DNA of 64,000 nt from assembly GCF_002895565.1 (NCBI RefSeq), contig NZ_AZRN01000033.1:1-64000 (forward strand), written 5' to 3'. Each line of letters begins with the position of its first letter. Positions within the stretch are counted from its first letter, which is position 1. The notes under the pieces were generated by a model that ran no database searches, was not told the DNA's origin, and saw nothing but the letters and a program-made list of their open reading frames with translations. Shown in pieces: positions 50,507 to 56,828 of the stretch. The position numbers and the translations under genes are program-made. Origin of the DNA: Petrotoga mexicana DSM 14811 (lineage in GTDB: Bacteria; Thermotogota; Thermotogae; Petrotogales; Petrotogaceae).

Positions 50507-50552
50507 TTTGATGTATCAAAAATATAAAACATTACTTAGTGGAGGTGTTAGT

Positions 50553-51185
50553 ATGAAAAAAGTTTTTCTGTCTTTCTTTATAGGTATTCTTTTAGTCGGA
50601 TCGTTATTTGCGCAAGTAGGACCAACTGGTGGGGCTCCAATGTCCCAGGTACAAAATCAGGATCCTGACAACCAGATGTTTCAAGTTCAAGAAAGATTGC
50701 AAGAAAGAGTATTATCTCAAGATGTTTCACCAGTATCCGTTACAGGAACTGTCAAAACCATAGTGGATGACGATGTCTCTTTAACCTTGAGTGTTGAAGT
50801 AGACTCTGAAATTTACTCAGTAAGAGTACCCAAGAATCTTTTGGATGATGTAAAAGCCGGCGAAAGTATTGAACTAACAGGATACAAGGTAGTAATAAAC
50901 GACATCAAAAACTTTGTACCTTTAGAGATCAAATATCAAGATAGAACAGTGAATATGCAGAGATACATGGAAAATGTTCGATCTCAAAATTTTGAAGAAA
51001 GATATCAAGGAAATTTCCAACAAAACCAAGATTATCAAAGATATAAAGACTACCAAAATTACCAAGATTTCAAAAGATATCAACAGTATAAGGATTATCA
51101 AGACTACCAAGATTTTCAAAGATACCAAAATAACCAAAGATTCAACCAAGAAAGATATCAAGATTGTCCTTATTACAACGACTAA
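50553..51185 (+). CDS. secreted protein with OB-like domain and Tyr/Gln triplet-repeat tail
   Basis: 210 aa, function unknown. Signal peptide MKKVFLSFFIGILLVGSLFA (start ATG at 50553 after TGGAGGTGTTAGT). A Gln-rich segment follows, then a compact beta domain (about residues 60-120, VTGTVKTIVDDDVSLTLSVEV to IELTGYKVVIND). The tail, from about residue 150, is built of three-residue units Tyr/Phe-Gln/Lys-Asp/Arg/Asn repeated some 14 times (for example YKDYQDYQDFQRYQ). It is highly charged, aromatic and low-complexity. It is monocistronic with its own terminator and a likely activator array. It could be a surface or matrix protein or a periplasmic stress protein; I cannot decide. Confidence 0.8.
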   Translation: MKKVFLSFFIGILLVGSLFAQVGPTGGAPMSQVQNQDPDNQMFQVQERLQERVLSQDVSPVSVTGTVKTIVDDDVSLTLSVEVDSEIYSVRVPKNLLDDVKAGESIELTGYKVVINDIKNFVPLEIKYQDRTVNMQRYMENVRSQNFEERYQGNFQQNQDYQRYKDYQNYQDFKRYQQYKDYQDYQDFQRYQNNQRFNQERYQDCPYYND

Positions 51186-51205
51186 TTCAAAGTAAAGACG
51201 ATGAG

Positions 51206-51232
51206 AAGAGGCCTAAAGGCCTCTTTTTTTTT
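51206..51232 (+). terminator. terminator after the triplet-repeat protein
   Basis: AAGAGGCC / GGCCTCTT stem with TAAA loop and a run of T. Confidence 0.9.
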
Positions 51233-51297
51233 ATATAAAGAAATAATTAACTTTATAATATTTTTCAAAAATTGAAAAAAACTTCAATATTTGGCTT

Positions 51298-56562: not shown

Positions 56563-56637
56563 TGGAGCGGATAATGGGATTCGAACCCACGACCCCTTGC
56601 TTGGCAAGCAAGTGCTCTACCGCTGAGCTATATCCGC
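56563..56637 (-). tRNA. tRNA-Gly (anticodon GCC)
   Basis: Acceptor GCGGATA / TATCCGC, anticodon loop TTGCCAA, T-loop GTTCGAATC, encoded CCA. Third and last of three tRNA genes read on the minus strand. Confidence 0.95.
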
Positions 56638-56647
56638 AATATTTGGC

Positions 56648-56735
56648 TGGTGCGCGAGGTGGGACTTGAACCCACACGGATTATTAATCCACAGGATTCT
56701 AAGTCCTGCGCGTCTGCCAGTTCCGCCACTCGCGC
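56648..56735 (-). tRNA. tRNA-Leu (anticodon TAG)
   Basis: Acceptor GCGCGAG / CTCGCGC, anticodon loop CTTAGAA, long class II variable arm, T-loop GTTCAAGTC, encoded CCA. Confidence 0.95.
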
Positions 56736-56752
56736 TAATAACTATAAAAAAA

Positions 56753-56828
56753 TGGTGACCCGCCTGGGATTCGAACCCAGGACCCTTTGATTAAAAGTCA
56801 AATGCTCTACCAGCTGAGCTAGCGGGTC
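56753..56828 (-). tRNA. tRNA-Lys (anticodon TTT)
   Basis: Acceptor GACCCGC / GCGGGTC, anticodon loop CTTTTAA, T-loop GTTCGAATC, encoded CCA. First gene of the cluster. Confidence 0.95.

Follow-up and report, generated by a model that had tools for sequence, protein, structure and literature searches.

A predicted exported OB-fold protein of Petrotoga mexicana with an aromatic triplet tail apparently held in register by selection

The locus studied here raises the question of whether the aromatic triplets near the end of a small, apparently secreted protein are a selected property of that protein or an accident of repetitive DNA, and of what such a tail may do if it is selected. The open reading frame concerned (50553-51185, forward strand) encodes 210 amino acids and lies in a window, i.e., the whole analysed stretch of 64,000 nucleotides, from Petrotoga mexicana DSM 14811 (NZ_AZRN01000033.1). 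It is a real gene, with a ribosome-binding site, a terminator-like stem on its 3' side and conservation in three genera, whose genomes keep both the gene sequence and the gene order, and it is present as a single copy in its own genome. The ATG at 50553, preceded by GGAGGTG, was preferred over the less likely upstream TTG start of the reading-frame listing, because it has both a ribosome-binding site and a signal peptide. The features of the gene and of the encoded protein are collected in Table 1.

Table 1. Features of the gene and of its product, with their positions in the window and the evidence for each.
Feature	Coordinates	Strand	Evidence or remark
Ribosome-binding site GGAGGTG	50541..50547	+	5 bases before ATG; sequence
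Sec signal peptide, residues 1-20 (MKKVFLSFFIGILLVGSLFA)	50553..50612	+	No lipobox Cys; read from sequence
N-terminal linker, residues 21-60	50613..50732	+	Gln-rich, poorly conserved (alignment); low pLDDT
OB-fold domain, residues 61-134	50733..50954	+	AlphaFold model, Foldseek matches, dN/dS
Connecting segment, residues 135-160	50955..51032	+	Helix 135-152 in part (AlphaFold model)
Aromatic triplet tail, residues 161-199	51033..51149	+	Permutation test; register conservation in orthologues
C-terminal cap ERYQDCPYYND	51150..51182	+	Terminal Cys recurrence among homologues
Intrinsic terminator-like hairpin and T run	51203..51236	+	Stem 51203-51228; beyond ORF end

From residue 161 onward, the tail reads YQR YKD YQN YQD FKR YQQ YKD YQD YQD FQR YQN NQR FNQ. 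Eleven (Y/F)(Q/K)X triplets stand in an unbroken row (residues 161-193), and NQR and FNQ continue in register, with one aromatic residue lost (Y194N), giving 13 triplets in total. The first-pass annotation, which had described a protein ending in about 14 triplets, was thus close in its count, but not in its description of the end, where the cap ERYQDCPYYND follows the tail. When the tail was shuffled 200,000 times at constant composition, no triplet run exceeded 6, against 11 observed. At the DNA level, a degenerate six-unit pattern occurred 6 times in the window, always inside this gene, and 0 times in 100 dinucleotide shuffles. The repetitive DNA that had also been announced was indeed present, but only as a loose repeat (period 45, 2.2 copies, 79% matches), whose triplet units use mixed and drifted codons (TAT, TAC, TTC and TTT).

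Conservation of the triplets was compared in seven orthologues, six of them from different species of the window genus and the seventh from a sister genus. Tyr or Phe was found at 88 of the 90 register positions and at 0 of the 180 off-register positions, both exceptions being Y194N, in the window protein and its closest relative. Tyr and Phe swap freely on the register and the spacer residues vary, while the runs of aromatics at every third residue are 11, 11, 13, 13, 13, 16 and 15 long. Changes in the length of the triplet region, with one genome per species, involve whole triplets only (four more in G017, of the same genus, and one fewer in G001, of the second genus). The length variation expected between strains was seen between species, and four orthologues of the same genus have an unchanged triplet number. 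The dN/dS ratio of the tail is about 0.16-0.37, from small counts of changes, and that of the OB domain about 0.11-0.22; synonymous change is saturated in the most distant orthologue pairs. As the aromatic register is kept while codons drift, the constraint bears on the protein and is not an accident of repetitive DNA, and a minisatellite reading was rejected in view of the register conservation and of a dN/dS below 1. These alignments well support a constraint on aromatic spacing and indicate a tail under purifying selection.

This tail is restricted to part of its family. The first-pass annotation had suggested that other Thermotogota be searched for the domain together with the tail: the domain proved widespread, but the triplet tail was found in two genera only. 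The six-triplet DNA pattern occurred in 7 of 103 Thermotogota genomes, each time in this gene. Among the matches listed in a scan of named genomes for the DNA pattern, no mixed-triplet tail like that of the window was recognised, and almost all were near-perfect 9-base repeats, the majority of them in short or equally open frames. The tails of other lineages are Arg/Gly/Asn-rich, Met/Asn/Gly/Pro-rich or short, and mostly cationic. In one sister genus, the domain persists with no more than a short remnant of a tail, and the triplet tail is therefore not essential to the family. Two changes of the triplet tail are needed on the OB-domain tree, which has few columns and is thus weak at deep forks; most simply, it would have been gained once in the ancestor of three genera (g1, g2 and g3) and lost once in g3. 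In one genome (G014), the pattern also occurs in a second, tail-only fragment (L082:5196-5342; G014 281195-281341), which lies some 5 kb upstream of the complete gene. This fragment, a remnant of local duplication, is preceded by a truncated duplicate of the transporter's last ATPase gene, and a TnpB-like gene, of IS200/IS605 type as judged by eye, stands beside it.

The remainder of the protein is in line with an exported binding domain. The Sec signal peptide that had been proposed was indeed read from the sequence, and its MKK...GS(I/L)FA pattern is kept across 24 homologues in the alignment. Export is thus well supported, by a conserved signal peptide, and the protein probably resides in the periplasm (toga-space). 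The small beta domain that had been described was confirmed by an AlphaFold model built with 24 homologues (block pLDDT about 82-97 over residues 61-140), and its fold is modelled with confidence as an OB-fold. The top Foldseek matches of the model are indeed OB-folds (Stn1, RPA32), and a distant, divergent homologue also gave a confident OB-fold model with OB-folds as its best structural matches. A domain profile search placed family members in 37 of the 103 Thermotogota genomes (14 of the 38 genera). Neither the window protein nor its homologues reached the cut-off of a Pfam or NCBIfam model; the homologues gave weak OB-fold matches below cut-off, and the window protein none. Searches of PDB sequences returned nothing convincing, the matches to phosducin and to signal peptides being probably compositional; no description of the family was found in literature searches, and a protein search of the named genomes gave zero relatives, close records being perhaps absent from that set. 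On sequence grounds, this is an unclassified family of predicted exported OB-fold proteins in Thermotogota, under no Pfam or NCBIfam cut-off. In one genus, a shorter second paralogue group (L027, L026, L025 and L062-L064) combines this domain with a tail rich in Pro, Tyr and Asn. In another case, genome G081, the family gene occurs with equal score on four contigs (L054, L081 and further copies; C4, C5, C6 and C8), with three of the four copies near a contig end, as a result of recent duplication or of an assembly artefact.

Beyond the tail, the cap contains the single cysteine of the protein, Cys205, six residues from the end (codon 51165-51167). A lone cysteine in the last seven residues was found in 21 of 58 homologues, against 1.7 expected if mature cysteines were placed evenly, a significance that is inflated by the relatedness of these homologues. 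It occurs in four families (f1, f2, f9 and f10), with endings such as CPYYND, CVYNAR, CIYQNR and CWR, and also in many distant members (L048-L081). This terminal cysteine may serve in disulfide linkage or anchoring.

Gene order was also considered. In each of three sister genera, the gene has minD-minE-yjbQ-like genes on one side and an amino-acid dehydrogenase cluster on the other, these names being our reading of the neighbouring sequences. A branched-chain amino-acid ABC transporter operon adjoins it, which the third genus does not have at this site, and no conserved operon partner was found outside the three. As the gene is followed by a terminator of its own, it probably stands alone as a transcription unit, and its context therefore gives no function. 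Three tandem tRNA genes (56566-56828, reverse strand) were also noted between the dehydrogenase cluster and ABC exporter genes.

From a mechanistic point of view, we favour an exported OB-fold binder with a disordered tail whose aromatic stickers would make it self-associate multivalently within the periplasm or the toga, a reading to which we give slightly less than an even chance. The compact OB-fold domain would bind a partner or ligand, while the tail would present 11-16 evenly spaced aromatic residues. These may act as stickers, by pi-pi contacts and by cation-pi contacts with spacer Arg and Lys, the Gln, Asp and Asn spacers keeping the chain soluble. Reversible multivalent self-association, or binding of other envelope polymers, would thereby concentrate OB domains in the envelope, and the terminal cysteine could lock or anchor the assembly. 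A grammar of aromatic stickers set at uniform intervals among polar spacers has been described for phase-separating low-complexity domains (PMC10491635), and self-association in the envelope was therefore preferred as mechanism. The tail indeed has non-random, uniform aromatic spacing that is kept across homologues. Since evolution has preserved this spacing, the tail probably acts as a kind of glue within the envelope, and the strict spacing lends indirect support to a plausible adhesive or self-associating role. Disorder, sticker function and the role of the cysteine are our own deductions: the tail has a pLDDT of about 35-55, which agrees with disorder but is not proof of it, and the model shows low-confidence coil and weak helices over residues 160-203, so that the tail may be partly ordered. 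By contrast, the amyloid-like character first suggested was not supported, because a spacing of three does not match beta-strand alternation, the tail is rich in Asp, Lys and Arg, and the model predicts no strands.

Other readings were weighed against multivalent self-association. An ordered tail, forming a 3-10, polyproline-II-like or alpha-helical rod with its aromatics on one face or in a spiral that binds a partner such as glycan or peptidoglycan, would be in line with a period of exactly three residues, with whole-triplet insertions and deletions and with the modelled helices; the low pLDDT and the very variable tail chemistry of relatives make it distinctly unlikely. A further reading, in which the OB-fold binds extracytoplasmic nucleic acid, either as extracellular DNA or during DNA uptake, with tails that bind or condense it, was suggested by top structural matches to ssDNA-binding Stn1 and RPA32 and to tRNA-synthetase OB-folds, and by the cationic, Arg/Gly/Asn-rich tails of most homologues. 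OB-folds, however, match structures of these kinds whatever their ligand, the triplet tail is close to neutral (net charge -2 to +5 within the genus), and no competence or DNA-uptake genes were recognised beside the gene, so that we consider this reading very unlikely. A tail of little function, left behind by repeat expansion, is hardly credible: a 45-base internal duplication is still visible, and perfect 9-base repeats are common elsewhere, mostly in non-coding-looking frames among the matches listed, but this reading is largely refuted by register conservation over two genera despite saturated synonymous change, and by a dN/dS well below 1.

A somewhat less remote reading, unlikely in our judgement, is a soluble stress protein like those of the BOF family PF04076 (E. 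coli YgiW, Salmonella YdeI and Vibrio SipA), with an OB-fold that binds cationic peptides or small ligands and a tail that docks an outer-membrane protein. Size class, export and fold all match, the window protein sharing the BOF architecture of a small, exported OB-fold protein while falling outside the PF04076 cut-off. To our knowledge, BOF proteins have no long low-complexity tail, unlike the window protein. Furthermore, PF04076 gave no match in the window protein, in 24 homologues or in 32 wider members, and exceeded its cut-off in 0 of 103 Thermotogota genomes; no stress-type genes were seen around the locus. Of the BOF proteins, SipA is a periplasmic protein that binds antimicrobial peptides and also contacts OmpA, while YgiW and YdeI contact porins (PMC6370654). 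A further point in favour of this reading is MamS, whose OB-fold was modelled on YgiW (PMC3905215) and which is the best curated model match in four family members. This similarity to MamS (NF040991) is weak, extends over the OB region of four distant members (best E 8.5e-05) and scores no higher than 22.8 bits, in a distant homologue only, where the cut-off is 200 bits, the window protein being unmatched. MamS is, moreover, a magnetosome protein, and no magnetosome genes were recognised near the window gene.

Multivalent self-association would have consequences beyond this species. If the tail is a sticker array, a thermophile would possess, outside its cytoplasm, a natural and minimal low-complexity domain with strictly periodic aromatics, and the seven natural variants, with 11-16 stickers, would allow aromatic number and spacing to be related to assembly. 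In any case, an unclassified exported OB-fold family has been flagged in Thermotogota, a phylum in whose toga one layer has no known components. Because this amorphous layer is biochemically uncharacterised (PMC5487896), a link between it and the window protein is speculative. A broader proposal, and a long shot, is that a phylum-wide exported OB-fold family builds extracytoplasmic condensates or a soft matrix, perhaps the amorphous layer of the toga, with tails that switch chemistry between lineages (Arg/Gly/Asn-rich or Tyr/Phe triplets) yet remain cohesive throughout and in many cases retain a terminal cysteine.

Like OmpA1 and OmpB of the Thermotoga toga, the window protein is apparently an exported envelope protein of Thermotogota, but these are a coiled-coil anchor and a porin, with different sizes and architecture. 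The tail of the window protein resembles the prion-like low-complexity domains of FUS and hnRNPA1 in its uniform aromatics, polar spacers and conserved patterning. It differs from them in being bacterial, apparently exported and thermophilic, in its strict period of three and in its Gln, Lys, Asp and Arg spacers where theirs are Gly and Ser, and, as a point against the sticker reading, stickers at every third residue are denser than in described prion-like domains.
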